In this document: one piece after another, positions 5,579 to 30,660 of the stretch
Numbering within the stretch: position 1 is the stretch's first letter
How the letters are laid out: every line of letters starts with the position of its first letter
Assembly: GCF_000763575.1 (NCBI RefSeq)
Contig: NZ_CP009170.1
Span: 893,501 to 957,500, forward strand
Length of the DNA stretch: 64,000 nt
Origin: Thermoanaerobacter kivui
GTDB taxonomy: Bacteria; Bacillota; Thermoanaerobacteria; Thermoanaerobacterales; Thermoanaerobacteraceae
Direction: 5' to 3'
Notes under the pieces: model-generated
What the model was told of the DNA's origin: nothing
Databases searched by the model: none
What the model saw: the letters and a program-made list of their open reading frames with translations, nothing else
Made by a program: the position numbers and the translations under genes

Positions 5579-5588
5579 CTATAATACT
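5579..5588. repeat. 10-bp direct repeat, left copy (candidate target-site duplication)
   Basis: CTATAATACT lies immediately left of the left IS element (GATAGTGT... starts at 5589). The same ten bases occur at 20610-20619, just outside the right element. Confidence 0.5.
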
Positions 5589-6256
5589 GATAGTGTAAAA
5601 TTTCAGTAGGTAACGAAGCAGGAAAATGAGGTATAGATGTAGAAAAAGACCTCACCGGGAAAAAATCAAAAATCAAATCAAAGGAAGGTGAGGTCTGATA
5701 TGTTATTAGATATTCGACACATAGTGGGCATAATCCTGCTTTTTGTTCAAGGTTTAACGAGAATAATAAGAGAGAGTAAAGATTTTTATGAACTGGAGAG
5801 AGGGATACATGAACTTAACAAAAAGTATCGAAACAACTTCTTGAGAGGGCAGCAGAAGAGATGGATAGAAAGTTAATGGAGAACCAAGAGAAAAGAGTGT
5901 GGGAAGTAATAGGATTTAGAGCAAAGCAGGTAATAAGCATTTTTGGGGAATTTACATATAGGAGAATGGTTAAGAGTTTCATTACCGATATTAGAAGGTC
6001 CATTTGCGAGCAAGCCATGGATAAAATACGTTTTAAAGGAAATAACACGAGCAAATGGTTCAGCAGTAGGTATTTGAGGAAGGAGTATAGTTCCATTATT
6101 TTACATTAAGAAAAGCAAAGAAAGAAAAGATATTTGTGTTTTTGTTAAAGTAATAATTTAACATAAATGGAATATATATAAATTACTAATCAAGCTTATA
6201 GTTTATTAGCGGTGAAGTCAGTTACAAAAATTTTTACCTACAAAATCTTGACATAG
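5589..6256 (+). mobile_element. ISLre2-type (UPF0236) element, internally deleted, left copy
   Basis: The left end GATAGTGTAAAATTTCAG.AGGTAA and the right end TTACCTACAAAATCTTGACA form an imperfect terminal inverted repeat. Inside are two remnants of an ISLre2/UPF0236 transposase. One is 5700-5876, starting LLDIRHIVGIILLF. The other is 5861-6109, containing NQEKRVWEVIGFRAKQVISI. The second is joined to a C-terminal scrap, so the central catalytic part is missing and there are frame breaks. Intact family members are about 450-480 residues. A near-identical copy with the same deletion lies at 19938-20609 in the same orientation, so the two are duplicates. Neither can transpose alone. Confidence 0.75.
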
Positions 6257-6276
6257 ACAGATAAATAGTGTAAAAT
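6248..6276 (+). promoter_or_regulatory. Hybrid sigma-A promoter: -35 from IS end, -10 from flanking DNA
   Basis: TTGACA (6248-6253) is part of the IS right terminal repeat. After exactly 17 bases comes TAAAAT (6271-6276). This would drive the biosynthetic operon, whose first credible start is at 6335. Confidence 0.6.
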
Positions 6277-6334
6277 CAAATAATTGATGGAAGTAGTATA
6301 TAATAATGATAATTTTGTTTTTAAAAGGGGGAAT

Positions 6335-7663
6335 GACATGGATTTAGAAACAAAAGTAAATGCATTATCAAAGCAAATCAGCAAAATGATTCAAACTGGT
6401 TTTTGGCCTGGATTTGTAGTTGGAATGTATCCAAGTCAATTTGCTTACAGACCAATAAAAGTTGATTTTAATTGTTGGAGAAAGGTAAGGGAGGTTAATT
6501 TGTACTACCATATTCCATTTTGCAAATGGAAATGTCCTTACTGCACGTTCTTTATGACTGTTCATTATGACGATGAAGTTGCTGCTAGATATATAGATAA
6601 AGTAAATGAGCAGTTCAACTTTATCAATTCTTATTTTGAAGAACCTATGGTTGTAAAATCTATTTGTTTTGGTGGAGGGACTCCAAACAGCATTCCTGTT
6701 GATTTATACGAAAAAATATTCGATACTTTACGAAAGGCAAATGTTATCTTCCATGAAGATTTAGAGCCTTCCATGGAAGTATCCCCTGAGATTCTTGACG
6801 AGCCGTATATTAAACGATTGGCGGAAATCGGAATTAAACGATTAAGTCTTGGGGTTCAAAGTTTAGATAAGGATTTAAGAAAGAGTATCAATCGTAAGGA
6901 AAACCTAAATATCTATGATATCGTGGATATTTTGAGAAAATACAACCTGAATATTAATTTCGATGTCATGTATGGATTGGAAGGACAAACAGCAGAAAGT
7001 TTCATGGATACGTTAAAGGAATTGGTGAAATTGGCACCTGAAACTTTCTCTTTATATCCGCTGGCAGGTTCGAAGACCAGTATGTTTAAAAAGAAGGATT
7101 CTTTAATGACTACGAAAGAAAGATATCAATTATTTGACGTATTTTATGATTATTTGACCAGCAATGGTTACGAGTGTGAATCGCACGTTAAGTTTAAAAA
7201 GAAAAATCAACATTCGACACACCAGCAAAAAATCTATGAATATCAAGGGACTCCAACGTTAGGATTGGGTTGTGCTGCAAGAAGTTACAATGAACACGTG
7301 CATTACACAACAGAATACACCAAGAACAGCCTTACTGCTCGCAAATATATAGACGAATATATCGAAAAAGACTATAAAGACCTTCAATTTTGCGGATTTG
7401 AAATGAATGAAGATGAAAATAAACGAAGAACAGTGATTTATGCTTTCTTCATGGGTAAACTTGACCCAAAAATTTATTTCGACAAATACGGAACAGATGT
7501 ATGGCAAGATTTTCATGTAGAGCTTAATGCTTTGCTTCAAAATGATTTAATTGTGATTAAAGATAATGAAATCTATCTCACAAGGAAAGGTCGAAAATAC
7601 ACTGATTTAGTAGGTTTCATTTTCTGGAGCGAAGGTGTTGCAAGCATGTATGCTCCAATATAA
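6335..7663 (+). CDS. HemW/HemN-like radical SAM protein
   Basis: Radical S-adenosylmethionine enzyme of the coproporphyrinogen-dehydrogenase-like (HemN/HemW) group, 442 residues. The [4Fe-4S] cluster motif is Cys63-x3-Cys67-x2-Cys70 in YYHIPFCKWKCPYC. FGGGTPNSIP follows (the SAM-binding GGGTP signature), and later SLGVQSLDK. The ATG 6335 has AAAGGGGG seven bases upstream; the in-frame TTG at 6284 would lie on the transcription start. A separate canonical hemW sits at 50.3 kb, so this copy is not the housekeeping one. In natural-product clusters such proteins often act as C-methyltransferases or C-C bond-forming enzymes; that role is inferred. It is the first gene of the operon. Confidence 0.85.
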   Translation, partial: DMDLETKVNALSKQISKMIQTGFWPGFVVGMYPSQFAYRPIKVDFNCWRKVREVNLYYHIPFCKWKCPYCTFFMTVHYDDEVAARYIDKVNEQFNFINSYFEEPMVVKSICFGGGTPNSIPVDLYEKIFDTLRKANVIFHEDLEPSMEVSPEILDEPYIKRLAEIGIKRLSLGVQSLDKDLRKSINRKENLNIYDIVDILRKYNLNINFDVMYGLEGQTAESFMDTLKELVKLAPETFSLYPLAGSKTSMFKKKDSLMTTKERYQLFDVFYDYLTSNGYECESHVKFKKKNQHSTHQQKIYEYQGTPTLGLGCAARSYNEHVHYTTEYTKNSLTARKYIDEYIEKDYKDLQFCGFEMNEDENKRRTVIYAFFMGKLDPKIYFDKYGTDVWQDFHVELNALLQNDLIVIKDNEIYLTRKGRKYTDLVGFIFWSEGVASMYAPI

Positions 7664-7698
7664 TAATCAGGTAAACAAATAAAGCGGGAGGAGTTCTC

Positions 7699-8127
7699 AT
7701 GTATCCTAATTATCGAATTTCTGTTGAAATCATTTTACTGCATGAGGGGAAGGTTCTTTTGACTAAACGTGCACCGCATTGCAAGGTCGCTCCGAATGTC
7801 TGGAATGTTCCAGCAGGAAAAATAAAATATGATGAAATTCCCATTCAGGGTATGTATCGAGAAGCAAAAGAGGAAATCAATTTGGATGTGGAATTGTTGG
7901 AAGAGCTATCAGTTAGAAATATAAAAAGTAAAAGTGGAGATGAAGATATATACCGAGTTGTGTTCACGTATCTTGTCAAACCCAAAAACGATGATATTTC
8001 TTCGCTCAAACTGAACGATGAACATTCCGAGTATGCTTGGGTTACCAAAGAAGATCTCAATAATCCAAAATATGAAACACTTCATGAAGATATACGGAAC
8101 ATTCTTTTAACGGAAGTGTTTAAGTGA
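7699..8127 (+). CDS. Nudix hydrolase
   Basis: 142-residue Nudix-fold protein that would cleave a nucleoside diphosphate linked to another group. The Nudix box spans about residues 41-63: Gly, then Glu after five residues, then REAKEE; the usual hydrophobic-Gly end is replaced by Ile-Asn. GGGAGGAG precedes the ATG. Its TGA overlaps the ATG of the downstream phosphopantetheinyl transferase by one base, so the two are translationally coupled. The substrate is unknown. Hydrolysis of an acyl-adenylate or CoA-type by-product of the pathway would fit but is speculative. Confidence 0.85.
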   Translation: MYPNYRISVEIILLHEGKVLLTKRAPHCKVAPNVWNVPAGKIKYDEIPIQGMYREAKEEINLDVELLEELSVRNIKSKSGDEDIYRVVFTYLVKPKNDDISSLKLNDEHSEYAWVTKEDLNNPKYETLHEDIRNILLTEVFK

Positions 8128-8804
8128 TGAATGAGGTATATGCTGTAAAGCTGGAAACTCCTATTGAAGAGGGACGACTTTTGGAATTTGTGTCTCCTGC
8201 GAGGAGAAAGGAAATTAAGCAATTTTCGCTTCGAGCTGAACGAATACGGAAACTTGTTGGACAATTGCTCCTTCAATTTGTTTTACAAAACAAGAAAAAG
8301 ATATTTCTGTGTCCATTACAATTTATTCGAAATGATTGGGGAAAGCCTTCTATTGCTGGTCTTGAGGGTGTTCATTTTAACATTTCTCATTCTTATGATT
8401 GTGTTGTTTGCGGAATCAGCTTACTTCCAATTGGTATAGATGTGGAGAAAGTCAGAGAAATAAATACAAATATTGCCAACCGCTTTTTTTCTACCGAAGA
8501 AATTGAATACGTTAATATGAAAAATGGAAATGAGCGATTGGAACGCTTTTTTCAAATTTGGACAAGAAAAGAAAGCTACGTTAAAGCAGTTGGAAAAGGA
8601 TTAATGATTCCGCTTAATAGTTTTAATATAACGCCTGTGAAGGTTTCTCAACTCTATGACCAGAATGGGTTTATCTATTATATAAAAGATTATCACTTAA
8701 AAGATGGTTACAAGTTAGCCATATGTTCTCAAAGTAATGAGTTTTTTGATGATGTTGAATTCATAACAATAAGAGAAATCCTGGATGGTCTACAGGCCTC
8801 TTAA
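8127..8804 (+). CDS. 4'-phosphopantetheinyl transferase, Sfp type
   Basis: Transfers the phosphopantetheine arm of CoA to the carrier-protein serine. The Mg-binding and catalytic motifs are GIDVEKV (around residue 100) and the FxxxWTRKESYVKAVGKGL segment (around 150). Its 225 residues match the Sfp/Gsp class used by NRPS systems rather than the short AcpS of fatty acid synthesis. The start is ATG 8127, overlapping the Nudix stop (TGATG). It would activate both the free carrier protein at 10.3 kb and the PCP domain of the NRPS, so the operon brings its own activating enzyme. Confidence 0.92.
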   Translation: MNEVYAVKLETPIEEGRLLEFVSPARRKEIKQFSLRAERIRKLVGQLLLQFVLQNKKKIFLCPLQFIRNDWGKPSIAGLEGVHFNISHSYDCVVCGISLLPIGIDVEKVREINTNIANRFFSTEEIEYVNMKNGNERLERFFQIWTRKESYVKAVGKGLMIPLNSFNITPVKVSQLYDQNGFIYYIKDYHLKDGYKLAICSQSNEFFDDVEFITIREILDGLQAS

Positions 8805-8823
8805 CAAAGAAAGGGAGGGGGCT

Positions 8824-10320
8824 TTGTCTATTGTATATTGGCGATATTTAGCAAAGTGGGAAAATAGTCCCAAAATAGCGATCAAACAAAAAAACCGCTC
8901 GATTAGTTATTCAGAGCTATATGAAAAATCAACTCTTGCTGCAAGGCAAATACAAAAAGAGAAAAAACCGAATATCGGTATTTATTTACCCAATTCGATT
9001 GATTATGCTATATCTTATTTTGGAATTACTTTAGCGAAAAAGTGTATTGTGCCGATTCCAATTGAATTTACAATAAAAGAAATTCGAGACACTGTCTTGC
9101 ACTGTGAGCTAAGTGCAATTATTACCAATCTCGCCAACTTAGAAAAACTTAAACCATTAAAGATGGCTTTCCCCCAATCGCTTAGGATTCTAACCATAGA
9201 AGATCTTTTAAGTAACAATAATATTTCAGAACAAGAAAACAATATTCCCTTGGCTTCCGAATCCAGCGAACATGATGTTGCCATTATGTTATGTTCGTCT
9301 GGAACTACAGGTAGCTCTAAACGAGTTATGCTAACCCACCATAATTTAATTACTAATATCAAGTCCAACATTTTATCTTTAAGTTTTAACCAAGATGATA
9401 TTACCCTAATCGTTCTTCCTATGTACTTTGGATATTGTAATACTGCCCAATTCCTCACTCATCTATATGTAGGAGCGACCATTGTAATTAATGAACCTCC
9501 TTTTACACCACAGTCTCTTTTAAGCACTATTCAGAAGGAGAAAATTACAAATTTTACAGCAGTTCCGAGTATATTGGTTATGTTAATGCAGTTCAAAAGA
9601 AAAGATCAATATGACTTGCATTCCCTAAAAATGGTTTGTTTTGGAGGAGGAATTATTGCAGAAGAGATCATTAAAGGTTTAATTGAAGCGTTCCCAACTG
9701 TTGGGTTTGTTCATACGTATGGCCTAACAGAAGCATCACCCCGATTAACCTGTTTGCTTCCCAGTGATGCACTTAGGAAAATAGGCTCAGTAGGGAAACC
9801 AATTCCTTTTGTTCAAGTGAAAGTTGTTGATGAAAATGGGAAAGAAAAGAAAATAGGAGAAGTCGGAGAAATTATCGCATTCGGGGAAAACATCATGAAG
9901 GGTTACTATAAAGACGAAGAAGCGACCCGAAAAGCGATCAGAAATGGTTGGCTTTATACGGGTGACCTTGGATACTTTGATGAAGAGGGATATCTCTATA
10001 TTGTTGGAAGAAAGAAAAACATCATTATAAGTAAGAGTATCAATATATTACCCGAAGAAATAGAAAAAGTGTTATTAAATCATCCATTGGTAAAAGAAGT
10101 GTGCGTAACAAGTGAGCCAGATGAGGTTTTGGGAGAAGCTGTCATTGCAAAAGTAGTTCCTTCCAGTTCAATGCCAAGCACCGAAATAGAAAATATATTG
10201 GAAGATTACTGCAGGGAAAATCTTGCTACTTTTAAGATCCCGAAAAGGATCGACATTGTTCCTTCCTTAGATAAAACTTATACAGGAAAAATCAAGAGAA
10301 ATTATAACGAAAGGAGATAG
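8824..10320 (+). CDS. Acyl-AMP/acyl-CoA ligase (ANL superfamily)
   Basis: 498-residue adenylate-forming enzyme that activates a carboxylic acid as acyl-AMP and loads it onto CoA or a carrier protein. It has the P-loop SSGTTGSSK, the A5-like YGLTEASPR, YTGDLGYFDEEGYLYIVGR and the C-terminal lysine in TYTGKIKR. I choose TTG 8824 (MSIVYWRY) because GAAAGGGAGGGGG lies just upstream; the ATG at 8785 is inside the preceding gene and lacks a ribosome site. It is followed after four bases by a free carrier protein, strongly suggesting the acyl group goes to that protein. The acid cannot be named from sequence. Confidence 0.9.
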   Translation: MSIVYWRYLAKWENSPKIAIKQKNRSISYSELYEKSTLAARQIQKEKKPNIGIYLPNSIDYAISYFGITLAKKCIVPIPIEFTIKEIRDTVLHCELSAIITNLANLEKLKPLKMAFPQSLRILTIEDLLSNNNISEQENNIPLASESSEHDVAIMLCSSGTTGSSKRVMLTHHNLITNIKSNILSLSFNQDDITLIVLPMYFGYCNTAQFLTHLYVGATIVINEPPFTPQSLLSTIQKEKITNFTAVPSILVMLMQFKRKDQYDLHSLKMVCFGGGIIAEEIIKGLIEAFPTVGFVHTYGLTEASPRLTCLLPSDALRKIGSVGKPIPFVQVKVVDENGKEKKIGEVGEIIAFGENIMKGYYKDEEATRKAIRNGWLYTGDLGYFDEEGYLYIVGRKKNIIISKSINILPEEIEKVLLNHPLVKEVCVTSEPDEVLGEAVIAKVVPSSSMPSTEIENILEDYCRENLATFKIPKRIDIVPSLDKTYTGKIKRNYNERR

Positions 10321-10324
10321 ATAA

Positions 10325-10582
10325 ATGTTAGAAAAATTAAAAAAGATTGTTATCAAACATGCAAGAAAAAAGGTAACTGAAAATGAACTAACAGAAAATA
10401 CCGATCTGGTAAAAGATCTCTGTTATGAATCAATTAATGTTGTTCAGTTAATGGCAGATTTTGAAGCAAATTTTGATTTTGTCTTTGAAGATGATGAAAT
10501 TGACTTTGACGTGATTTGTAATTTTGGGAAATTGAGTAAATTTGTTCAGATGAAAGTAGAAGCAAATGCAACTAAACAATAG
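10325..10582 (+). CDS. Free-standing acyl/peptidyl carrier protein
   Basis: 85-residue acidic helical protein of carrier-protein size. The attachment serine is Ser36 in CYESINVVQLM, where the common Asp-Ser-Leu is Glu-Ser-Ile. It has AAAGGAGAT upstream. It should be converted to the holo form by the Sfp-type transferase at 8.1 kb and loaded by the ligase immediately upstream. It is distinct from fatty-acid AcpP, being coupled to this operon and carrying an atypical Ser motif. Confidence 0.85.
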   Translation: MLEKLKKIVIKHARKKVTENELTENTDLVKDLCYESINVVQLMADFEANFDFVFEDDEIDFDVICNFGKLSKFVQMKVEANATKQ

Positions 10583-10643
10583 GAACTCTTAAATAAATTC
10601 TAGTTAAATATTATCCTGAATCATACTATACGAGGTGATGTGC

Positions 10644-12126
10644 TTGAAAAACAGTCAAATAACCTTATTGAATACAAATGCAACTGAAACCAAGCAAAGT
10701 TTGCAATATATTCCATTAGTGATAGTTGGATTGGGACCTCATTCCAAACGAATTTACTTTCATTTCTTAATAAAACATGGAATGGCTCCCCAAATAATCG
10801 TTGAATTATCATCTAAAAAACAAGATGTTGAAAAATTTTTAAAGCAAAAAAGACTAGATGGGACTTTGGTTTATTATGTGGATGATTCTGTCAAATATAA
10901 TGAAGTATTACCCGAAAAGGTTCAATCCGAATTAAAAAAACTTTTGTCCCAAAACCGTATTACCCATGCTATTATTTCTACAGAGCCAAAAGCCCATTTT
11001 TCATATATCCGATTCTTTTTACAATCCGATATTCACATATTAGTGGACAAGCCAATCACTTCGCCTGTAGATGTTGCTAATGATGAAAGAATGGCAAAGA
11101 AAATAATAGATGATTATAGTGCCATTATCGATGTTTACAAAGAAAAGAAAAAGAAAGGTATAAACTGCATAGTTCAATGCCAACGAAGATGGCACGAAGG
11201 ATATATGTTCATACGTAGGTTGTTAAAAGACACAATTTCCAAATATCAAATACCTATCACCTCAATGGAAATATATCATTGTGATGGAATGTGGAATATG
11301 CCCGATGAATTCTTGTTTAGAGAAAACCACCCATATAAATATGGTTATGGAAAGCTATTTCATAGTGGGTATCATTTTTTCGACTTAATGAGTTGGATGA
11401 TTTCCCTGAATAACATTCTTGAACAAAAGAAAATAGACAATGTTGAACTATACACAGCAGTAATAAGGCCAAATGATTTTCTTTGAAATCATTAATAAAG
11501 AGGATTATCACCGTTTGTTTGGAACAACTAAATTTGACAACTTGTTTGAAAATAAAGCGACGCTAAATCTAGACAGTTTTGGCGAAATAGATTGTTGCAG
11601 TTTAATTCAATTCAAAAAAGCCGAAACACCTATTACGATATGTAGTGTAAATCTTCTTCAAAACGGATTTTCCCGCCGTGCTTGGACTGAACTTCCAGAA
11701 GATACCTATAAAGGTAACGGAAGAGTCCGTCATGAGCGAGTGAATATACAAGTGGGACCATTGATGAATATACAGGTTCACAGTTATCAGTCTACTGAGA
11801 TTAAGGACAGAGGTTTAATCAATCATAATGATGTAGGAGCAGTAGAACATTTTGATATTTATGTTTTTCGAAATGTCGGTTTGATTGGCGGAAAGCCTTT
11901 TGAAAAGATTGCTATAAATGATATTGTGAAAGAGGAGCAATCTTCCTCTTTTATTGGCTACAATGAACGGGCAAGGGAGAATTGTTTGATGAATTTCTTA
12001 AACAATGTTCCGACTCATTCAGATATATTGGACCATGAAATGACAATCAAATTACTCTCACATACCTATTTATCTATTGCAAAACGCAAACATAAAGAAA
12101 ATCCTATCGTTCAATTTGCTTTGTAA
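10644..12126 (+). pseudogene. Gfo/Idh/MocA-like oxidoreductase broken by a one-base frameshift
   Basis: Two overlapping frames form one protein of about 493 residues. The first (10644-11486) holds the Rossmann dinucleotide-binding start VIVGLGPHSKRIYF, the LVDKPITS motif (equivalent to EKP of the family) and HSGYHFFDLMSWM. The second (from about 11475 to 12126) continues at IRPNDF/FEIINKEDYH through the C-terminal domain. One extra base in GATTTTCTTTGAAATC around 11477-11483 splits them. TTG 10644 follows CGAGGTG. It would oxidise or reduce a sugar-like or cyclitol-like substrate with NAD(P). If the frameshift is real, the pathway step is lost; a sequencing error is possible. Confidence 0.72.
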
Positions 12127-12140
12127 AAGGGGTTGGAACG

Positions 12141-13424
12141 ATGATAAACGAAATATTTTTTGGTGAAAAAAAAGATAAAATTTATTCAGCTCTGAAAAAC
12201 GTACTGGAAAACGTTCCGTACTATCGTGAAAATTGGGGTTTTAAATTGCCTCCAATAGAAAAATTTGATTATTCCTTTTTCCAACAATTTGTGCCGATTT
12301 TAGAAAAAGATGAGGTTAGAACTCATAATGACCAATTTATTTCTACCAGATACGACAAAAATGAACTAACATTCGATGTAACAAGTGGGACAACAGGAAA
12401 TCCTCTCCTTTGTTACAAGTCAAAAAAGGAAAGGCTAAAAAGAGCAAACGAACTTTGGAAGCAACGAAGAATGTTTGTTCCAGACCTATCAGTGTATGAT
12501 AGATTCGCTCGCTTCTATGCTTATCGCATGAATGAAGAGTATTTAATCACTAACAAAGTTTTGCACCGAGGCAATGAGCTTCATATCCCTCTTTTCGATT
12601 ATAGTGAAGATAGAATAGAAGAGTATTTGAGTGAAATATCTCAATTTCATCCAAGATGGATGCATGGTCCGTCTACTGCTATTTTTAATTTAGCCAAACA
12701 TGCAAAATCGAAAAAGATTGATTTAAAAATTGAATTGATAGAACTTAATGGAGAATTCGTTACGGATATCCAACAGTCCTTAATTAAAGAAGTCTTTCAG
12801 TGTAAAGTGGCAAATCATTATGGAAGCCGAGAATTTTGGGCAATGGCTTATAGCTGCGAAGAAGGTCATTTGCATGTATTGGATGAAAGCCTTTTTATTG
12901 AGTCTATATACAATGAATCTTTGCAAGATTATGAACTGGTCGTCACTTCTCTGAGCAACGATGCATGGCCTTTGATTCGATATAAAATCGGGGACGTAGG
13001 AACCATCGAAAAAATCAGTTGTAATTCTCATTCATCTTCTTATGTGCTTCATCTAAAAAAGGGAAGGATAGCAGATTACTTTACACTTGCAGGGAACAAA
13101 TATATCAATGCAATTACGTTCTCTGGTATTATACGGGGACTGAGCAATATTAAAGGCAGTTTGGTGGTTTATCAATATCAAGTCCTTAAAGTAGCGGAAA
13201 ACGAATTAATCATAAAGTTATGCATGAACAAAGAAAATGCTGAGAATATCAAATCATTTATTGTTCGATTAGGAACAGAAATTCGAAAAATCATTGGGAA
13301 CGAAATCATTCTTCACTTTAAGATAGTCGATTCTATTCAACCAGACCCCAAAACAGGTAAGTGCAGAGATTTTGTAGACCTAACAAAGAAAGGGGTAGAA
13401 TATGAAAGGGCATTATTGGAATAA
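12141..13424 (+). CDS. PaaK/CapK-like adenylate-forming enzyme
   Basis: 427-residue relative of phenylacetate-CoA ligase and CapK, a divergent ANL branch. The ATP-binding loop is DVTSGTTGNPLLCYKS near residue 75. NHYGSREFWAMAYSC and LIRYKIGDVGTIE follow as later family motifs. GGGGTTGGAACG precedes the ATG. It probably activates an aryl or other carboxylic acid. It is the third adenylating enzyme in the operon besides the acyl ligase and the NRPS A domain. Its last 23 bases overlap the NRPS start. Confidence 0.85.
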   Translation: MINEIFFGEKKDKIYSALKNVLENVPYYRENWGFKLPPIEKFDYSFFQQFVPILEKDEVRTHNDQFISTRYDKNELTFDVTSGTTGNPLLCYKSKKERLKRANELWKQRRMFVPDLSVYDRFARFYAYRMNEEYLITNKVLHRGNELHIPLFDYSEDRIEEYLSEISQFHPRWMHGPSTAIFNLAKHAKSKKIDLKIELIELNGEFVTDIQQSLIKEVFQCKVANHYGSREFWAMAYSCEEGHLHVLDESLFIESIYNESLQDYELVVTSLSNDAWPLIRYKIGDVGTIEKISCNSHSSSYVLHLKKGRIADYFTLAGNKYINAITFSGIIRGLSNIKGSLVVYQYQVLKVAENELIIKLCMNKENAENIKSFIVRLGTEIRKIIGNEIILHFKIVDSIQPDPKTGKCRDFVDLTKKGVEYERALLE

Positions 13425-16400
13425 AGTAAGTTTAATTGAACTATTAGAAAATAAATTTCAGCAATATCAAGACCGAACAGCAGTTATATATGAAGGAAAC
13501 AGCCTGACGTATCGAGCCTTAAATAATAGGGCAAATCACTTGGCAAAAAAATTAAGGAATAAAGGAATTGTTCCAAATGACATTGTTGCAATTTGTTCTG
13601 AACGATCTCTCCATTTAATGGTCGGCATCCTTGCGATTATGAAAGCAGGAGGTGTTTACCTGCCAATTGAAGCAACTACTCCTTTAGAAAGAGTAGAGTA
13701 CATGCTGAGAAATAGCAACGCAAAGCTGTTTCTCACGTATAAAAAATATCAAGAAAAAACCTCTTCCTTCATTCCAAGTATTTTTTTAGATGAAGAAATC
13801 AACGAAGAAGAGTGCGAAAATCCCCGTCCCTGCTTAACAACACCCAATGACCCGCTATATGCTATTTACACATCAGGAACAACAGGTCTTCCAAAGGGAA
13901 CGGTATTAAGAAATAATTCGTTTGTAAATCTGATTGAATGGTATACCGAGGAGATCAAATTAGACAAGGATGAAACCACGCTTGTCTATACTCCTGTTAG
14001 TTTTGATGCTACACAAAAAAGCATTTTTTCACCATTATTAACAGGCGGAAGATTATTGTTGGCATCTTCTGACCCTTACGACCCATCGGTTATATTAAAA
14101 TACATTCAGGATTATCAAGTGAACCATATTATTGCCACGCCGAGTTCTTTTTATCCTATTTTATATTTAGCTGAAAAAGAAAGATTTGAAACCTTACGAA
14201 GTCTAAGAATTTTATCTTTAAACGGAGAAACTATCAATATCAAGAACTTAAAAAATTGGTTGCGTTCTTATAACTGCAATGCAACGGTTTACAATCTTTA
14301 TGGTCCATCGGAATGTGCGGATATTTCTATTGCAAGAAAACTTAACCCATATCCGTTGCTCCGAGACGATGAAGGAACTATCATCGGCAGACCGATCCCC
14401 AATGTAAATGCCTATGTGCTAAATGAGAGCGGTCAATTAGCTGATATAGGAGAAATTGGTGAGTTGTATTTAGGCGGAATCTGCGTGGGAAACGGTTATT
14501 TCGACAAGTCCTTGAATAAAGGAAAATTCGTTCCAAATCCTTTCAATGAAAATGAAATCATTTATAAAACGGGAGATTTGGTGCGGATTTTGGAAGATGG
14601 CAACATTCAATATATTGGAAGAGTTGACAATCAGGTAAAAATAAGAGGGCAACGAGTTGAACTGGAGGAAATAGAAAACGTAGCACTTCGCTATCCAGGG
14701 ATTCTTCAATGTACGGTTACTTTTGACTCTGACAAAAATTGCTTGACACTCTATTATTTTTCAAAGGAAATTTTAAATCCAGAAGAGATTCGCTCATTTT
14801 TAAAAAATAAACTTTCTGGTTATAGCGTTCCGTCGTTTTTGTATCAAGTGTCAAAGATACCATTAAACAAAAACGGAAAAGTTGACCGTCCATCTTTACC
14901 CAAATATATTATTAAGACTGAAACGAAAAAGGAAGAAGAATGGAGCGAGTTAGAATTAAAAATTAAGGAAGTATGGAAAGAAGTGATTTATACTGATGTG
15001 AAAAAAGACGATATTTTCTTTCACGTTGGTGGCGATTCTTTAAGTGCGTACGTTATTCTTAATGGTTTATACGATGTGTTTAAAGTAAAAATTACGATGA
15101 AAGAGTTTTATGAAAATCCTACAATATCAGGACTTTCAAAGCTAATCAAAGAAAAACTGTCACAAGGTGCTTCTGAAGAACCCAAGAAAAACCTCGAACA
15201 AATAGGAGCCAATATTGCTCGGACATTATCAGAAGTAGATTTGCAACAAATAAAGCTAAAATATCAGGAGATCAATCAAAATCTATTTGAAACAGTGATT
15301 AACTCCAACATCAGACATGAATATTCATTTCCTTATTTCCGAAAAAGCAAGCACGGTTTTAAGGGGAAAAAATCAGATATTTATCACTTTGTTTATGAAG
15401 TTGTTCTGGATAACACATCGGTACAAGAAATTCAAATGATGTTCAATAAACTTTTAGAAAGTCAAGTTCTCCTTAGAACCACATTAAAGGAACAGGGGAA
15501 AGAATTTATTTGTAATGAGTATTCATATTCCCCTGCGAATATAGACTTCATTGACATTAGTGCTTACGATGAAGAATCTCAAAAGAAAATAGAAAAATTA
15601 CTATTGAATGAGATGAAAGATTCGATTTATCAAAATTGGGAGAACCCTCAATTATATTATCGGATGTGTTTACTAAAGATCAATGTTACAAAGTATAAAC
15701 TGTTATTTGTATTTGAACATCTTATTTCAGATACAGAAACGGGAAGGATTTTGAACGAGTATTTTAAATCTCCAAGCTATAGTTCTTCTATTGTTCAGAC
15801 AGATGATTTCAGGCTTTTCTTAGAAGAAATCTATAGGTTAAACAAAGACGAAAAATTGACAAAATATAAGGACTCATCTCAATATCGTTCGCTTCGGAAC
15901 GAAATTGAACTCTTTTATCAGAAGAATCCATCTTACAAAAAAGGGAATCCGATAATACTGTCAAGTCCCAAAATATTAGAAATTGATATGCGAACTATTG
16001 ATAGGAAAGTTGGAAATATTCCTATGCATTATTTCTTGTATATTTGCACGAATTTATTAAGTATTGCGTTCAAATTAAAGAAGATTCCAATACGAATTTT
16101 TGTAAACAAAAGGAATTATGGAAAGCTCAATTTTTACAACACTATCGGTGATTTTTCGGAAACAATTCCTGTAGTCTTTGATGCGGAACTGCAAAGCGGA
16201 GAACTATATTACCTACAATACAAAGAAAATAATGACTATTTAACGAATAACAAAATAGCGTTGAAAAGTTTCAGAGATGATCCCGAAATCTTCAATGTTA
16301 TCTATTTGAGTTGTCCATTTACGTACAACTTTTTAGGAGAACTAACAGATGAAGAGGATAGGTATTACAAGGAAAATGCCTCTAATTTCCATAGCCTCCC

Positions 16401-16539
16401 ATATCCAATATTAGGTTATTGCAAAGAAAATCAGATGACCATCATTATTAATAATGGATTAAAAATGGAGGAGGTGGAAGAGTTTGAACAATTCCTAAAG
16501 TCACTAAAAATTTCCTATAAACTTACAAACAAGGAGTGA
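13402..16539 (+). CDS. Nonribosomal peptide synthetase, single module: adenylation - PCP - condensation-like
   Basis: 1045 residues. The adenylation domain (about 10-500) has YTSGTTGLPKG near residue 156, FDATQKS in the substrate pocket (the Asp expected for alpha-amino acids), NLYGPSECA, YKTGDLVR and NKNGKVDRP with the catalytic lysine near 493. The PCP domain (about 515-590) carries the attachment Ser546 in HVGGDSLSAY. The rest (about 640-1045) resembles a condensation domain. Its HHxxxDG motif appears as EHLISDTETG around His773-Asp777, so the first His and the Gly are changed while the second His and the Asp remain. There is no thioesterase. The start overlaps the PaaK-like gene and has AAAGGGG. 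Confidence 0.9.
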   Translation: MKGHYWNKVSLIELLENKFQQYQDRTAVIYEGNSLTYRALNNRANHLAKKLRNKGIVPNDIVAICSERSLHLMVGILAIMKAGGVYLPIEATTPLERVEYMLRNSNAKLFLTYKKYQEKTSSFIPSIFLDEEINEEECENPRPCLTTPNDPLYAIYTSGTTGLPKGTVLRNNSFVNLIEWYTEEIKLDKDETTLVYTPVSFDATQKSIFSPLLTGGRLLLASSDPYDPSVILKYIQDYQVNHIIATPSSFYPILYLAEKERFETLRSLRILSLNGETINIKNLKNWLRSYNCNATVYNLYGPSECADISIARKLNPYPLLRDDEGTIIGRPIPNVNAYVLNESGQLADIGEIGELYLGGICVGNGYFDKSLNKGKFVPNPFNENEIIYKTGDLVRILEDGNIQYIGRVDNQVKIRGQRVELEEIENVALRYPGILQCTVTFDSDKNCLTLYYFSKEILNPEEIRSFLKNKLSGYSVPSFLYQVSKIPLNKNGKVDRPSLPKYIIKTETKKEEEWSELELKIKEVWKEVIYTDVKKDDIFFHVGGDSLSAYVILNGLYDVFKVKITMKEFYENPTISGLSKLIKEKLSQGASEEPKKNLEQIGANIARTLSEVDLQQIKLKYQEINQNLFETVINSNIRHEYSFPYFRKSKHGFKGKKSDIYHFVYEVVLDNTSVQEIQMMFNKLLESQVLLRTTLKEQGKEFICNEYSYSPANIDFIDISAYDEESQKKIEKLLLNEMKDSIYQNWENPQLYYRMCLLKINVTKYKLLFVFEHLISDTETGRILNEYFKSPSYSSSIVQTDDFRLFLEEIYRLNKDEKLTKYKDSSQYRSLRNEIELFYQKNPSYKKGNPIILSSPKILEIDMRTIDRKVGNIPMHYFLYICTNLLSIAFKLKKIPIRIFVNKRNYGKLNFYNTIGDFSETIPVVFDAELQSGELYYLQYKENNDYLTNNKIALKSFRDDPEIFNVIYLSCPFTYNFLGELTDEEDRYYKENASNFHSLPYPILGYCKENQMTIIINNGLKMEEVEEFEQFLKSLKISYKLTNKE

Positions 16540-16545
16540 TGTTAA

Positions 16546-17766
16546 GTGAGTAAGCACGTTATGGTTTTTGGCGGATTCTTTCCTCTTCATGAAAGATTAG
16601 TTGAAATGGGGGCAAGTTTAACCATTTTGACAACAACAGACAAGATTAAAGCACATTACCCCAAAATATATAAGAGAGTAGTCACTTTAGAAAAAGGAGC
16701 AAAAAGAGAAGATTGGATTGCAATGGCAAAAGCCATTGATGAAATCGAAAAAGTGGATGCTATAGGAGCTTTTCAAGATTATCTGCAAAAAGAAGCCGCA
16801 TGGGCTGCAGAAGCATTAAACCTTCCGTTTGATAATACAGCAGATGTTGTAAGGTTAGTTGAAAACAAAAATTTAATGAGAGACAGATTGAGAGCAGCTG
16901 GTGTAGATAAAATCAAAAACGCTGTTATCAACAACATTGAAGAAGCTCTTGCTTTTGTATCAGAAGTTTCCTATCCAGTAATCCTCAAGCCGACTGATTC
17001 CATGGGAAGTACAGGAATCTACAAAATTGAGAATGAAAAAGAATTAAGAGAAAAAATTTCCGACTTTAAATCAAAATATCCACATTTGCAGATGTACATG
17101 GAGGAATTTATTGAGGGAGAAGAATTTAGCGTGGAGGCATTCTCTAAAAATGGAACGCATTACGTTTACGGTATCACAAAAAAATACAAGGAATTAGAAC
17201 GGTTCGTTGAGATCGGACATACCGTTCCCGCTGATATACGTTCTGAGAAAGAACAAGAAATCAAGTCTTTTGTAGAAAAAGTTTTAACCTGTTTAGGGGT
17301 AATGAATGGTCCCACGCATACAGAAGTTATGATAAGCAAAGATGGGATCCATGTTGTCGAAACCCACACTCGGTTGGGTGGAGATATGATCCCTGAATTA
17401 TATTCTTACTCAGTAAATAACAAAGTTGACATTTTAGATTTAGTAGCAAGACATACCTTAGGGGAAAATGTAATGGAAGAGTTTAAAAAACATTTTAAAG
17501 GAGAAAAAGAAATATTTGCTTCTATCTTCTATAAAATTCCTGAAAAACTAGGTGTAGTAAAAAGAATTTCGGGATTGTCTGAAGCAAAGGCAAAAGAAGG
17601 GGTACAACAAGTTGAATTATCTGTGAAAGAAGGCGATAAAGTAACAGAATTACTAAATTCCTTTACACGACTTGGATTTGCTATTGCAACTGGAAGAACT
17701 GCAGAAGAATCGCTCCAACGAGCAAAAGAAGCAATTAATTCAATAGAAATGGAGATCGAGGAATGA
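16546..17766 (+). CDS. ATP-grasp ligase
   Basis: 406-residue ATP-grasp enzyme, joining a carboxylate (as acyl phosphate) to an amine. It has an N-terminal preATP-grasp region, VILKPTDSMGSTGIYK (nucleotide-binding glycine loop), MYMEEFIEGEEFSVEAF and the Mg-binding VVETHTRLGGDMIPE. It resembles BacD-type L-amino acid ligases and related natural-product ligases. GTG 16546 has AAGGAG upstream. In context it may form the last amide bond and release or extend the product of the thioesterase-less NRPS; this is inference. Its ATGA end overlaps the exporter gene. Confidence 0.88.
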   Translation: MSKHVMVFGGFFPLHERLVEMGASLTILTTTDKIKAHYPKIYKRVVTLEKGAKREDWIAMAKAIDEIEKVDAIGAFQDYLQKEAAWAAEALNLPFDNTADVVRLVENKNLMRDRLRAAGVDKIKNAVINNIEEALAFVSEVSYPVILKPTDSMGSTGIYKIENEKELREKISDFKSKYPHLQMYMEEFIEGEEFSVEAFSKNGTHYVYGITKKYKELERFVEIGHTVPADIRSEKEQEIKSFVEKVLTCLGVMNGPTHTEVMISKDGIHVVETHTRLGGDMIPELYSYSVNNKVDILDLVARHTLGENVMEEFKKHFKGEKEIFASIFYKIPEKLGVVKRISGLSEAKAKEGVQQVELSVKEGDKVTELLNSFTRLGFAIATGRTAEESLQRAKEAINSIEMEIEE

Positions 17767-19028
17767 TGAAGTACTTATTAAATCTCCTAAAAGATTTCTT
17801 GACTTTATCTCGCAACTCTAAATTTCTTTTGTTATCTGTTTTGATTTCTAACATTGGAAATGGAATTCAATTGTTGACCGTTGGAAAAGTGCTATATGAT
17901 AAAACAAATTCGGTAGGAGCGTTTGGGTTTGTGATTTTGTCCGAACAGCTAATTAAATTCTTTTTGCAATTATTCTCGGGTTCCTACGTAGATAGTAGGA
18001 ACCCGAGAAATGTCGTTGTCGCATCAGATGCAATAAGAGGAATTATGTTATTGTTATTATTGCTCTGTTTTTGGAGTAATGATTGGATAGCAATTGGATT
18101 AATGGTCACAACATTAGCAATAAATGCAGTGAAACCTTTCTACAATGCCAGTATATTTGCTCTATCCAGTAGAATTGAAGAAGGGGATGAATTGTTAAAA
18201 CTAAATATTGTGTTCAATACTTTCTTCCAAGTAGGTCAACTTTTAGGAAGTGGCATTGCCAGTATTATATTAATGTGGTTTAATCCGTTATGGGGTGTTT
18301 TTATTAATGCTGTAACATTTTTAATCTCTGCGTTTTTCCTTAGTTGTATAACCAATGTCGAGGTTGAACATGGGACGGAGAGACAAAAAAAGAAGATTAC
18401 CCTCGCTTTTTTCCTACAAGATTGGAAGGAATTTTTCAAAAAGCTGAGATACAAACTCGCATTAGTTATTCTGGTTTTGCTATCAGTTGGAGATATTTTT
18501 ATGGTAAATGTGATTAACCTCTTAATGATCCCCATTATTAACAACAAATTAAGTGGTCATTACAACTGGTTGTTTTTCTTGGATGGTGGTTTTGCTTTCG
18601 GGGCAGGTGTATTTAGTCTATACGTCTACAAAGTTAAGCAAAAAATAGGGATTTACAAAACTATCCTGCTCTCAGTTCTGATTCAAGCTGCCTCTTTTGC
18701 TTTAATTTCCGTAACTTACTCACTAATTCCTATGACTATACTCTTCATACTAATAGGAGCTACTAATGCTTCTTCTATTTCACTTTCTATAACCCTGACC
18801 CAACAATTTAGCGAAAAAGAAATAAAAGGAAAAATATCTTCATTGAGACAATTAGTCTTATCTATTTTCCTCCTTGTCAGCATACCTCTCATTGATAAAC
18901 TGCACAAAATTAATTTTGATGCAACGCTCCTGTTGAGCAGTGGCATTCTTTTCTTGTTTTTCTTAGGATACTTTGCAAGCAAGTCGGTTATTTTTCAATC
19001 CAAAAAAACAGGAGTGATAGCGGGATGA
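17763..19028 (+). CDS. MFS transporter, probable product exporter
   Basis: 421 residues with about 12 predicted membrane segments. A GSYVDSRNPRNVV loop between segments 2 and 3 matches the MFS A-motif (GxxxDRxxRR-like). It resembles the MFS_3 drug/enterobactin-type exporters. It overlaps the ATP-grasp gene by four bases (ATGA) and the TatD-like gene by four bases. Its place at the end of the biosynthetic genes suggests export of, or self-protection against, the product. Confidence 0.88.
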   Translation: MMKYLLNLLKDFLTLSRNSKFLLLSVLISNIGNGIQLLTVGKVLYDKTNSVGAFGFVILSEQLIKFFLQLFSGSYVDSRNPRNVVVASDAIRGIMLLLLLLCFWSNDWIAIGLMVTTLAINAVKPFYNASIFALSSRIEEGDELLKLNIVFNTFFQVGQLLGSGIASIILMWFNPLWGVFINAVTFLISAFFLSCITNVEVEHGTERQKKKITLAFFLQDWKEFFKKLRYKLALVILVLLSVGDIFMVNVINLLMIPIINNKLSGHYNWLFFLDGGFAFGAGVFSLYVYKVKQKIGIYKTILLSVLIQAASFALISVTYSLIPMTILFILIGATNASSISLSITLTQQFSEKEIKGKISSLRQLVLSIFLLVSIPLIDKLHKINFDATLLLSSGILFLFFLGYFASKSVIFQSKKTGVIAG

Positions 19029-19789
19029 TTGACACCCATGCTCACATGGACAATATATTTTATCTACGTGATCGAGATAAAGTAATAAAAAATGCGATAG
19101 AAAAAGGAATTAAGCACATTATTACAATTGGGATAAATGTAGATTCATCTAAGCAATCTATCCAGTTAGCAGAAAAATATCCTCAAATTTATGCAAGTGT
19201 TGGTATTCATCCTCAATGTGTAAATCAACTTTCAGATGAAAGTGTTTTAAATAAGATTGAACAATTGGCAAAACACCCAAAAGTAGTGGCAATTGGGGAA
19301 GCAGGACTTGACTATAAATACGGTCAAGTAAATGATGAATTTGCTCGTCGTATTTTTATAGGACAAATTCAAATTGCCAAGAAAAGAGAACTTCCTATTA
19401 TCATTCATAGTTGGCTATCTCATAATGAAGTAATAGAAATTTTAACAAAAGAGGGCGTTCCACGCTCAGGTGGAATTATTCATTGTTTCGATGAAGATTG
19501 GGAAACAGCTAAAAAATATTTATCATTAGGAATGTATATATCCCTATCAGGGATTTGCACCTATAAAGAAAATAGCTTTTTATTAGAAGTGATAGAAAAA
19601 ACTCCAATTGAAAAATTGCTGCTTGAAACAGATAGTCCGTATATTTCTCCCGAACCTAACAGGACTAAACGAAACAATCCAAGTAGAGTATTAGATGTTG
19701 CCAAATTCGTTTCAGAAGTTAGAAAGGAACCTTTTGAATATATTAAGGAAAAAGTAACTGAGAATGCAAAAAAAATCTTTAAAATATAA
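19025..19789 (+). CDS. TatD-family metal-dependent hydrolase
   Basis: 254-residue TIM-barrel metallohydrolase. Metal-site motifs: THAHMD at the N terminus, GEAGLDY, the His in IIIHSW, IHCFDED and ETDSPYISP. Canonical TatD proteins are 3'-5' DNases, but here the gene is coupled by a four-base overlap to the exporter, is the last gene of the operon and is inside the IS bracket. A role as hydrolase or amidase on the product or an intermediate is therefore possible. It could also be a passenger housekeeping-type gene. Confidence 0.88.
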   Translation: MIDTHAHMDNIFYLRDRDKVIKNAIEKGIKHIITIGINVDSSKQSIQLAEKYPQIYASVGIHPQCVNQLSDESVLNKIEQLAKHPKVVAIGEAGLDYKYGQVNDEFARRIFIGQIQIAKKRELPIIIHSWLSHNEVIEILTKEGVPRSGGIIHCFDEDWETAKKYLSLGMYISLSGICTYKENSFLLEVIEKTPIEKLLLETDSPYISPEPNRTKRNNPSRVLDVAKFVSEVRKEPFEYIKEKVTENAKKIFKI

Positions 19790-19845
19790 ATATCAGAAAG
19801 GTTTCTTCTTTTGTTTTTAATTTCTTTTTTTAGCATGATAAGCGA

Positions 19846-19896
19846 AAAGGCTCCTGCCTCTATAGGTAGGAGATGAATCGCTATTTTTATAGGGGG
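19846..19896. other. Hairpin resembling an IS200/IS605 tnpB right end
   Basis: GGCTCCTGCCTCTATAGG pairs with TAGGAG beyond it and is followed by ATGAATCGCT. From memory, such a hairpin plus GATGAATC is typical of the 3' ends of TnpB elements. No tnpB remains. It may act as the terminator for the operon. Tentative. Confidence 0.3.
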
Positions 19897-19937
19897 ATTT
19901 TAATTGAGAAAACATTTAGGGAAAGTATCTATTGCTA

Positions 19938-20609
19938 GATAGTGTAAAATTTCAGTAGGTAACGAAGCAGGGAAATGAGGTATAGATGTAGAAAAAAGAC
20001 CTCACCGCGAAAAAATCAAAAATCAAATCAAAGGAAGGTGAGGTCTGATATGTTATTAGATATTCGACACATAGTGGGCATAATCCTGCTTTTTGTTCAA
20101 GGTTTAATGAAAATAATAAGGGAGAGTAAAGATTTTTATGAACTGGAGAGAGGGATACATGAACTTAACAAAAAGTATCAAGACAACTTCTTGAGTGGGC
20201 AGCAGAAGAGATGGATAAAAAGTTGATGGAGAACCAAGACAAAAGAGTGTGGGAAGTAGTGGGATTTAGAGCAAAGCAGGTAATAAGCATCTTTGGGAAA
20301 TTCACATATAGGAGAATGGTTAAGAGTTTCATTACCGATATTAGAAGGTCCATTTGCGAGCAAGCCATGGATAAAATACGTTTTAAAGGAAATAACACGA
20401 GCAAATGGTTCAGCAGTAGGTATTTGAGGAAGGAGTTAGTTCCATTATTTCACATTAAGAAAAGCAAAAAAGAGAAAGGATATTTATACTTTATTAAAGT
20501 AATGATTTAACATAAATAACAATATATACAAATCACTAATTTAAACTTATAAATTCTTAGCGGTGAGGTCGACTACAAAAAATTTTTACCTACAAAATCT
20601 TGACACGGA
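19938..20609 (+). mobile_element. ISLre2-type (UPF0236) element, internally deleted, right copy
   Basis: Same structure and same internal deletion as the copy at 5589-6256, in direct orientation. The left end GATAGTGTAAAATTTC is at 19938. Transposase N-terminal remnant: 20050-20226. Second remnant (NQDKRVWEVVGFRAKQVISI): 20211-20510. Right end CTTGACAC at 20599-20606. The copies differ at scattered bases, so they have begun to diverge. Together they bracket the biosynthetic operon. Confidence 0.75.
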
Positions 20610-20619
20610 CTATAATACT
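20610..20619. repeat. 10-bp direct repeat, right copy (candidate target-site duplication)
   Basis: CTATAATACT, identical to 5579-5588. It lies three bases beyond the CTTGACAC end of the right IS copy. The inner flanks of the two elements show no matching repeat. Confidence 0.5.
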
Positions 20620-28800: not shown

Positions 28801-29456
28801 AAAGCGGGGTCTGGCGGGAAGAAAAGGATCTGGTGGAAAGTTATGATAGTTCCATGTGTTACTGCTATTATCGGGGCAAGGTCGAGGAAAACCGTGCTCT
28901 CTTCGCCAGGCTTGTCTCTACAGTTGACGTGGTTTCGCAGGTAAGGCACAACACGGAGTATGAATTTACTGACCTCGACCATTACTACGAGTTTTTTGGC
29001 GGGCTTTCCCGGAGCGTGGCGGAAAAGAAGGGAGAGACCCCCGAGCAGTGGGTGGTGGACACTACAGAAGAAATCGTTGAAGTGTCCGATGTGGGCCTGG
29101 CTATTGACCGGGCGGTGAGGACGCGACTTTTCAACCCCAGGTGGATTGATGAGATGCTGAAGCATAAGTACCATGGCGCCCAAAAAATAGCCGAGCGGCT
29201 GGAATATCTAATCGGCCTTAAGGCCACCACTGGCCAGGTGAGCGAGTGGGTTTTCCGGGAGGCGCTCCACCGCTTCCTGCTGGACCAGGACATGCGCCGC
29301 CGGTTGGCGGAGAACAACCGCTTTGCCGCCCTGGAAATAGCCAGGCGTATCGCTGAAGCCATCCGCCGGGGCTACCTCAACTGCAAAGACGAAGAGTTGA
29401 CCGGATTCCAAAACGCGGTACTGGAACTGGAGGGCTGGATTGAAGAGAAGACTTGA
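25824..29456 (+). CDS. CobN/BchH-type chelatase large subunit
   Basis: 1210-residue porphyrin/corrin-binding subunit of an ATP-dependent metal chelatase (cobaltochelatase CobN or Mg-chelatase H family, normal length). Family motifs include HQYLCFYWWLQKEF, IIHWGMHGTLEFTKGKE, GNPSESTIAKRRSYA, HNTEYEFTDLDHYYEFFGGL and an N-terminal BchH-like region. TGGAGGCG precedes ATG 25824. Such enzymes need AAA+ partners (CobS/CobT or ChlI/ChlD); none is in the window. CbiM and CbiN-like genes follow, so cobalt insertion into a corrinoid is the likeliest role, with nickel or magnesium less likely. GC-rich, unlike the neighbours: laterally acquired. Confidence 0.88.
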   Translation: MVDFLILSTIDNTRELREAMLEIRAEYGEILSVKKIYFSDWERGRIDPEKVEEAVKSARVILVDIRGQTEFTDRLRELITGSTATVVVLVGGSRDILSLTRMGSFSGADLPRREGRFDIEAYLKARKFAEIAKKLGAVLPVGKLKHMRNWVLACEYYAEGGKENLKNLLLFLLREYCGAKVEVRPPQKMPDWGIWWPPDRHFTDLKAFKTSVGWDEGKPAVGIFFYGGMHFDDCTPVVEALAKELGDEVNLIPVFSKAEHNLTALRACFFDEGRPAVDLVVNLQYFRLHGGPYGGAPEPTYQLLSELGVPVLTGFRSYTTEIGEWQKENRLNPLEITLGVMLPELDGCIEPVYVGGLVSLGEDGILGGEVKEVQALPEGIERLAGRIRKWFGLRRKPNAEKKVPIILYDYPPGEAKLGSAGYLDALESLRVFLEKLAACGYRVEIPTGDLGEFLLSRGVANTPKWQVAPPGIAVDAAVYRRWYSELPPDLRAQIERHWGEPPGTVMVRNDEILLPGVVVGNVFIGVQPSRGVHENPEKAYHDKELPPHHQYLCFYWWLQKEFRADCIIHWGMHGTLEFTKGKEAPVSRRCFPDILIGDVPHLYYYWVGNPSESTIAKRRSYAVTVSHASPPVVAAGLYGEYLELEELLAEYRKAEGRDKETLAGAIKEKAQVLSMPVGDLAELEVYLYRMKRRLIPKGLHVLDRQLEGEDLVNYLAALVRFDREVPSFYRMVAERMGFSYESLAREPEAFAAVDREVHQAIRRWLAGDETALPPEIGQYLAQVRENIARSQESAGLLSVLDGRYLLPNLAGDPVRSPEVYPVGRNMYEFDPRLIPTSLALKRGEEAVKAILERFYRTYGRYPETVGMVLWGFETLSTGGETIAQILAYLGVRLVRKESPWFKELELIPLEELGRPRVDVLVTICGIFRDICSPQIELINQAVELAANAPEPEDMNFVRKHSLEMEAEHGNVGRARVFGPHATEYATSMRALVESGVWREEKDLVESYDSSMCYCYYRGKVEENRALFARLVSTVDVVSQVRHNTEYEFTDLDHYYEFFGGLSRSVAEKKGETPEQWVVDTTEEIVEVSDVGLAIDRAVRTRLFNPRWIDEMLKHKYHGAQKIAERLEYLIGLKATTGQVSEWVFREALHRFLLDQDMRRRLAENNRFAALEIARRIAEAIRRGYLNCKDEELTGFQNAVLELEGWIEEKT

Positions 29457-29569
29457 GGAGGTCGGACTTATGCGTTACGTGTATCCTTGGAGGTTCCTAC
29501 ATGTACAGGCTGAGGCGTTCATTTTTATTTCCTCGGCCTCACACAAATCCTAAAAAGGGGGCGATTTTA

Positions 29570-30561: not shown

Positions 30562-30632
30562 TGTGTGTGTGCTTCCGCCTGGGATGCAGGCCTGAAGCTG
30601 GCTGCAATGAAAGTGCTGCTGCCAACGACCTG

Positions 30633-30660
30633 CCCGGCAAAGCTCTTGCCGGGTTGGCTT
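30633..30660 (+). terminator. Terminator-like hairpin after the CbiN-like gene
   Basis: CCCGGCAA-AGCTC-TTGCCGGG, an 8-bp GC-rich stem followed by GTTGGCTT (weak T tract). It probably ends the chelatase/transport transcript before the HD-GYP gene. Confidence 0.5.

Follow-up and report, generated by a model that had tools for sequence, protein, structure and literature searches.

A probable horizontally acquired nonribosomal-peptide-type gene cluster between two ISLre2-derived copies in Thermoanaerobacter kivui

A 64,000-nucleotide stretch of the Thermoanaerobacter kivui genome (the window; bases 893501-957500 of a single contig of 2,397,824 bp, the published genome being given as 2.397 Mbp with 35% G+C [PMC4320612]) holds an operon at window positions 6335-19789 that joins a nonribosomal peptide synthetase (NRPS) to several acyl-activating enzymes. 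We consider it probable that this operon is a complete small nonribosomal-peptide-type gene cluster that was horizontally acquired and is carried within a 15-kb unit that has a copy of an ISLre2-derived insertion sequence (IS) at either end. The operon comprises 12 open reading frames (ORFs) representing 11 genes, all on the forward strand, and neighboring ORFs either overlap by 4-23 nt or are separated by gaps of 4-52 nt. The original prediction had described eleven tightly packed, partly overlapping genes making up a compact hybrid NRPS/acyl-ligase operon; the number of genes, their packing, and the coordinates stand, and the hybrid character is borne out by the gene content, but the oxidoreductase is actually spread over two ORFs. 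The three adenylating enzymes, two carriers, dedicated Sfp-type 4'-phosphopantetheinyl transferase (PPTase), and exporter that it named are likewise confirmed by Pfam and NCBIfam matches. Among the more weakly recognized proteins, the free acyl carrier protein (ACP) has an E value of 0.013 in Pfam but is matched by NCBIfam ACP models at 6e-8, and the PaaK-like ligase, which lies under the Pfam cut-off, is matched by PaaK/F390-synthetase NCBIfam models at 1e-12 to 1e-22. The radical SAM protein does belong to the HemN/HemW superfamily; however, the family nearest to it is STM4012, although below that model's cut-off, and not HemW as had been proposed.

Relatives were sought by scanning 84,980 species genomes for the Gfo/Idh oxidoreductase family, which returned a single full relative of the operon, in Ectobacillus antri SYSU K30001 (NZ_RIAV01000022.1), with all 11 genes in identical order at 73-93% amino-acid identity. 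The DNA homology extends over 13.6 kb, from window position 6304 to 19888, at ~86% identity; it takes in a shared leader and terminator, and its sole interruption is by two other insertion sequences (named from their ORFs) between the ACP and Gfo/Idh genes of E. antri. The ratio of nonsynonymous to synonymous substitutions (dN/dS) between the two operons is 0.07-0.31 in every gene, with a dS of 0.40-0.56. Because the genes and their order recur in E. antri at 86% DNA identity, with purifying selection on each gene, the operon is more than a chance assembly, and the low dN/dS in every gene implies that it has been kept together as a whole and has passed between distant hosts. The E. antri operon differs in that its Gfo/Idh gene is intact, its upstream sequence is unrelated, and no ISLre2-type ends were seen there. 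In both genomes a separate housekeeping TatD is encoded elsewhere (45% identical to the cluster TatD in T. kivui and 41% in E. antri), and the TatD of the cluster is therefore a dedicated second copy. When 398 genomes of the phylum were searched with the radical SAM protein, no close relative was found apart from the window's own, the only other match at E <1e-45 being 30% identical. An A domain-peptidyl carrier protein (A-PCP) module like that of the operon was found in 0/9 Thermoanaerobacter congeners, so the earlier remark that NRPS systems are unusual in thermophilic anaerobes holds within the genus.

An IS-bounded unit of 15,022 bp (5589-20610) holds the whole operon (Table 1); its two flanking copies, ~670 bp long, 93% identical, and directly oriented, are the sole full-length copies in the genome. 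The outer borders carry matching 9-bp target-site duplications, and in six congeners base 5588 is directly joined to base 20614, which represents the empty site. One intact ISLre2 that was inspected (in L143) has a 9-bp duplication too, TTTGTACAA. Each flanking copy retains only ~53 residues of UPF0236, the ISLre2 transposase, so neither encodes an intact enzyme; elsewhere in the genome, five ISLre2 elements are intact, score equally, and have similar ends, and laboratory activity of ISLre2 in T. kivui has been reported (PMC12056078). A 15-kb unit with two transposase-deleted ISLre2 copies fits a composite transposon that is served by a transposase in trans, or an equivalent of one. The IS may also contribute to expression: transcription of the operon is probably driven by a predicted hybrid promoter pointing outward from the IS end, with its -35 inside that end and its -10 just outside, upstream of the start of the E. 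antri homology. A hairpin with a T-rich tail closes the operon, and its E. antri counterpart has a z score of -3.8. The flanking copies and the empty site had been missed by the original prediction, as had the frameshift and the C-terminal condensation-type domain of the NRPS that are described below.

Table 1. Predicted features of the ISLre2-bounded unit and its operon (window positions)
Feature	Position	Strand	Evidence
Left target-site duplication copy, 9 bp, TATAATACT	5580..5588	.	Matches right copy
Left ISLre2-derived copy, internally deleted, ends GATAGTGT...TTGACATAGAC	5589..6258	+	PF06782, E 4e-6
Predicted hybrid promoter, TTGACA-N17-TAAAAT	6248..6276	+	11/12 consensus bases; consensus match only
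Radical SAM protein, HemN/HemW superfamily, nearest STM4012	6335..7663	+	CxxxCxxC present; Pfam Radical_SAM 79 bits
NUDIX hydrolase	7699..8127	+	Pfam NUDIX 70 bits; NUDIX box GKIKYDE...REAKEEI
Sfp-type 4'-phosphopantetheinyl transferase	8124..8804	+	Pfam ACPS 72 bits, AASDHPPT_N; nearest AusB, below cut-off
Acyl-AMP ligase (FadD/MenE type), presumed ACP loader	8785..10320	+	Pfam AMP-binding 247 bits
Free-standing acyl carrier protein	10325..10582	+	Serine motif DLCYESIN (DLxYxSI)
Gfo/Idh/MocA-type oxidoreductase, N-terminal part	10635..11486	+	Ends at CTT TGA
Gfo/Idh/MocA-type oxidoreductase, C-terminal part	11473..12126	+	+1 frame; aligns gaplessly with intact relatives
PaaK-like adenylate-forming ligase	12141..13424	+	Family profile matches
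NRPS, A-PCP-divergent condensation-superfamily domain	13402..16539	+	Pfam AMP-binding 251 bits, PP-binding 44 bits
ATP-grasp ligase with L-amino-acid-ligase C-terminal domain	16546..17766	+	ATP-grasp_4 97 bits, LAL_C2 71 bits; PRK02186, DdaF, BacD-related
MFS exporter	17763..19028	+	Pfam MFS_1 100 bits
TatD-family hydrolase, dedicated second copy	19025..19789	+	Pfam TatD 259 bits
Terminator-like hairpin, then TATTTTTAT	19841..19882	+	-21.6 kcal/mol, z -2.4
Right ISLre2-derived copy, direct orientation	19938..20610	+	PF06782, E 3e-6
Right target-site duplication copy, 9 bp, TATAATACT	20611..20619	.	Matches left copy

How the unit came to lie between its two IS copies could be explained in another way, namely by homologous recombination of incoming DNA that carried a second copy with a resident ISLre2-derived element. 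We regard this route as tenable although somewhat doubtful. It would yield the same IS-operon-IS outcome with an outer target duplication, both flanking copies lack an intact transposase, and members of the order are often naturally competent, T. kivui itself taking up foreign DNA (PMC9834392). However, the only two full-length copies of the genome both flank the operon, and the five identical intact ISLre2 elements could provide the transposase in trans. The structure does not separate composite transposition from recombination. As separate observations, two further congeners (L134 in G008 and L140 in G004) have unmatched sequence upstream of gltX and not the plain empty site, possibly reflecting other insertions at the same spot, and shorter ISLre2-derived fragments of ~310 bp with both ends present, resembling miniature inverted-repeat transposable elements, occur at G000:C1 1067912-1068225 and 1078892-1079210.

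The two Gfo/Idh ORFs together form one gene of ~496 aa with a 1-nt frameshift between them. A +1 shift at CTT TGA joins them into a sequence that aligns to relatives gaplessly over the junction; the second ORF matches the C-terminal halves of actinomycete proteins that are encoded as one chain of ~500 aa, and a T-rich run in the window contains one base that the intact E. antri gene lacks. The product has a Rossmann N-domain (PF01408, 36 bits); K138-P139, with the EKP-type lysine, and the catalytic residue H246 are invariant in 55 relatives. The intact E. antri protein, as modeled by AlphaFold (predicted local distance difference test [pLDDT], 92), has a Gfo/Idh fold nearest to sugar dehydrogenases (Foldseek, E 1e-14). 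The break is positioned inside the C-terminal domain, and the first ORF loses the C-terminal half of the fold. As both halves are under purifying selection relative to E. antri (dN/dS of 0.13 and 0.15), the break would be recent, bypassed, or a sequencing error; unless one of the latter two applies, the split oxidoreductase may leave the cluster inactive in this strain.

The frame-breaking base and the lost half of the fold also lend themselves to a bleaker view, in which the cluster is decaying cargo that was functional in an earlier host and has been inactivated here by the frameshift. This seems unlikely to us: none of the other genes is broken and purifying selection acts on all of them; the frame is lost at CTT TGA; the second ORF possesses an ATG of its own, a short way downstream of an AAGG; and the extra base is possibly a sequencing error. 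CTT TGA is the +1 slippery sequence known from prfB. Programmed frameshifting of the prfB kind was nevertheless rejected for the Gfo/Idh gene, as no prfB-type Shine-Dalgarno stimulator lies nearby; a pattern search of the T. kivui genome found no canonical prfB site either.

Five of the operon's genes recur together in genomes with otherwise different clusters. In Paenibacillus humicus and Anaerosacchariphilus polymeriproducens, the radical SAM, ACP, Gfo/Idh, PaaK-like, and acyl ligase genes lie together at 28-55% identity to those of the operon. The A-T-C NRPS (adenylation, thiolation, and condensation domains in that order) is absent from both; in P. humicus, where the NUDIX gene is also present, two ABC exporters and an Ldh_2 dehydrogenase are encoded instead, whereas the Anaerosacchariphilus locus combines a BtrH_N protein with an A-PCP protein and a HAD phosphatase. 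Because the core recurs with such unlike condensation machinery, it suggests that the five genes make one carrier-bound building block. More tentatively, the core could be an undescribed cassette for a new carrier-bound unit that is plugged into different amide-forming machines, an A-T-C module in T. kivui and apparently a BtrH-type acyltransferase in Anaerosacchariphilus, so that thermophilic and mesophilic Firmicutes would make a new class of compounds. In Enterococcus sp. BWB1-3 and Lactovum miscens, a Gfo/Idh-NUDIX fusion adjoins genes for an MFS exporter and a 974-aa A-PCP-C protein, and the Enterococcus locus additionally has an ATP-grasp ligase. The remaining Gfo/Idh relatives stand mostly alone or by a NUDIX gene (adjacent at 21/76 loci and near, by motif or BLAST, at 9/76), and a few are fused to one.

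Members of this long Gfo/Idh subfamily (~480 aa) occur as pairs or fusions with NUDIX proteins in Patescibacteria, Chlamydiae, and gut Bacilli (loci L046-L125, e.g., L048, L053, L095, and L120), sometimes near nucleotide-kinase-like, lactate-dehydrogenase-like, or HAD genes. In two uncultured Firmicutes (L049 6138-9086 and L100 1593-4606), a Gfo/Idh relative is followed in conserved fashion by lactate/malate-dehydrogenase-like, HAD-like, and NUDIX genes. A more distant relative belongs to a conserved plasmid-borne actinomycete cluster (L029, L030, L041, L043, and L044) that encodes a CoA ester lyase, MaoC, GNAT, phosphotransferases, Ldh, an LLM oxidoreductase, the Gfo/Idh protein, and a PIG-L deacetylase. 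Such actinomycete clusters were rejected as kin of the operon, with which they have that gene alone in common.

The NRPS has an A domain at about residues 10-500 (AA-adenyl-dom TIGR01733, 367 bits against a cut-off of 317) and a PCP at residues 520-582 (PF00550, 44 bits; serine motif GGDSLS). Its specificity code, read by hand as D-A-K-A-S-N-L-D-I-K by alignment to GrsA, is not known to correspond to any specificity and was not used. Residues 600-1045 contain the condensation-type motifs HLISD and IGDFSETIPV and gave no meaningful Pfam match even at E values up to 5. In the C-termini of the window, E. antri, Enterococcus, and Lactovum proteins, HxxxD, NxR, IGD, TxP, and NxxGE are all kept, and a profile built from these four matches the C domain of tyrocidine synthetase 2 (E 2e-4). 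The leading Foldseek matches, near full length, are all C, epimerization (E), or heterocyclization (Cy) domains; the AlphaFold model is poor (pLDDT 52), and these fold matches are therefore taken as supporting only. Within HHxxxDG, the catalytic second His and the Asp are kept (HLISD), and the first His is replaced by Glu. We read this region as a divergent condensation-superfamily domain that is probably of the C type rather than the E type, because the E-domain motif EGHGR is missing.

If the domain were instead an epimerase, the module would supply only a D-aminoacyl thioester, and the ATP-grasp ligase would make the amide bond. The motifs IGDFSETIPVVF and FTYNFLGE do resemble epimerization-domain motifs, and the E domains of GrsA and TycB are among the best fold matches; this reading is nonetheless distinctly unlikely, as NKRNYGK stands in place of EGHGR and the best sequence match is the tyrocidine synthetase C domain. 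With a C-type domain in A-T-C order, the cis PCP would be the donor, and the acceptor must then come in trans, as the free ACP or a soluble amine. Such an acceptor would explain the lack of a thioesterase; neither a thioesterase nor a reductase release domain was found among the 12 ORFs of the operon.

The best-supported reading is an assembly line coupled to export, each chemical step of which we infer from protein families. The PPTase would activate both the free ACP and the PCP, and the acyl ligase would load the ACP. The radical SAM protein, Gfo/Idh oxidoreductase, PaaK-like ligase, and NUDIX hydrolase would then turn the ACP-held unit into a common building block, while the NRPS would load an amino acid onto its own PCP and its downstream condensation domain would join this amino acid to the ACP unit or to a free amine. 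The ATP-grasp ligase may attach a further amino acid, the MFS protein would export the product, and TatD may serve as a resistance or maturation hydrolase. Taken with the ATP-grasp ligase and the conserved five-gene core, the A-T-C order favors a somewhat more complex product of the amide or dipeptide type; the acyl- or aryl-capped amino acid proposed earlier is still a guess.

Several points weigh against a complete, horizontally acquired cluster carried by an ISLre2-bounded unit: (i) the flanking IS copies are without an intact transposase; (ii) the Gfo/Idh gene is frame-broken in the T. kivui genome; (iii) the predicted condensation domain is very divergent, down to the first His of HHxxxDG; and (iv) the order of the biosynthetic steps, like the steps themselves, comes from family membership. 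It is very improbable that the operon is instead a defense or housekeeping operon, as TatD matching QatD, a NUDIX protein matching a candidate defense model (PADLOC), and the many Gfo/Idh-NUDIX pairs without any NRPS might suggest, since its own PPTase, two carriers, three adenylating enzymes, and exporter define assembly-line biosynthesis and the housekeeping TatD exists elsewhere in the genome. A Qat defense system was likewise rejected, there being no QatA, QatB, or QatC partner beside the QatD resemblance. Elsewhere in the window, a block at 25824-32800 has 48-57% G+C in a 34% genome and is apparently another foreign insertion; its content, named from the sequences, includes a CobN-like protein of 1210 aa, a CbiM-like permease, an HD-domain protein, and a GGDEF protein.

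Thermoanaerobacter and its relatives are seldom regarded as producers of natural products, and T. kivui possesses a mobile orphan pathway, nearly intact and under selection, that is unusual in its enzyme set (matching no named pathway searched), in its host, and in the clean evidence of transfer. The five-gene core also offers a handle on enzymes of obscure chemistry, the STM4012-like radical SAM protein and the long Gfo/Idh subfamily often found with NUDIX, which range from Patescibacteria to Streptomyces. With T. kivui as the host, deletion and metabolomics are practical, given its genome editing (PMC12044746) and natural competence (PMC9834392).

Comparison with known systems, which covered NCBIfam models, species genomes, and the literature, agrees with the earlier suggestion that the operon may be undescribed: the genome scan turned up a single full relative, and no operon protein reached a curated NCBIfam cut-off for a named pathway, the equivalog models for aureusimine, dapdiamide, bacilysin, and bagremycin/ferroverdin all scoring far below theirs. 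Searches of the literature for the gene set, for STM4012, and for an NRPS in T. kivui gave no relevant result. DdaF (dapdiamide) and BacD (bacilysin) are ATP-grasp enzymes with LAL_C2, as is the operon ligase; however, the latter scores 75 bits against DdaF (cut-off 840) and 54 against BacD (cut-off 850), and the surrounding pathways differ. STM4012 is the best NCBIfam model for the radical SAM protein, at 293.4 bits against a cut-off of 380, but the STM4011-4015 operon was rejected as an identity because its partners STM4011, STM4013, and STM4014 are absent here; they are present in Paenibacillus pHD02. Similarly, a butirosin-like or Paenibacillus-like saccharide cluster (L028), which has the best PaaK-like match (33%), was set aside, as it shares only the PaaK-like and acyl ligase genes and a different Gfo/Idh. 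AmbB of Pseudomonas shares the A-T-C domain order, and its T-C structure is among the fold matches, although the sequence identity is very low. The genes surrounding AmbB are unrelated to those of the T. kivui operon. For the mobile unit, a precedent is Tnces, the cereulide NRPS cluster of Bacillus, which has been reported as a composite transposon (PMC4057527) and so resembles the T. kivui unit in carrying an NRPS-type cluster, but for a different, characterized pathway. The NRPS-type cluster and the mobile unit are both of known kinds, whereas the combination of enzymes is apparently new and rare.

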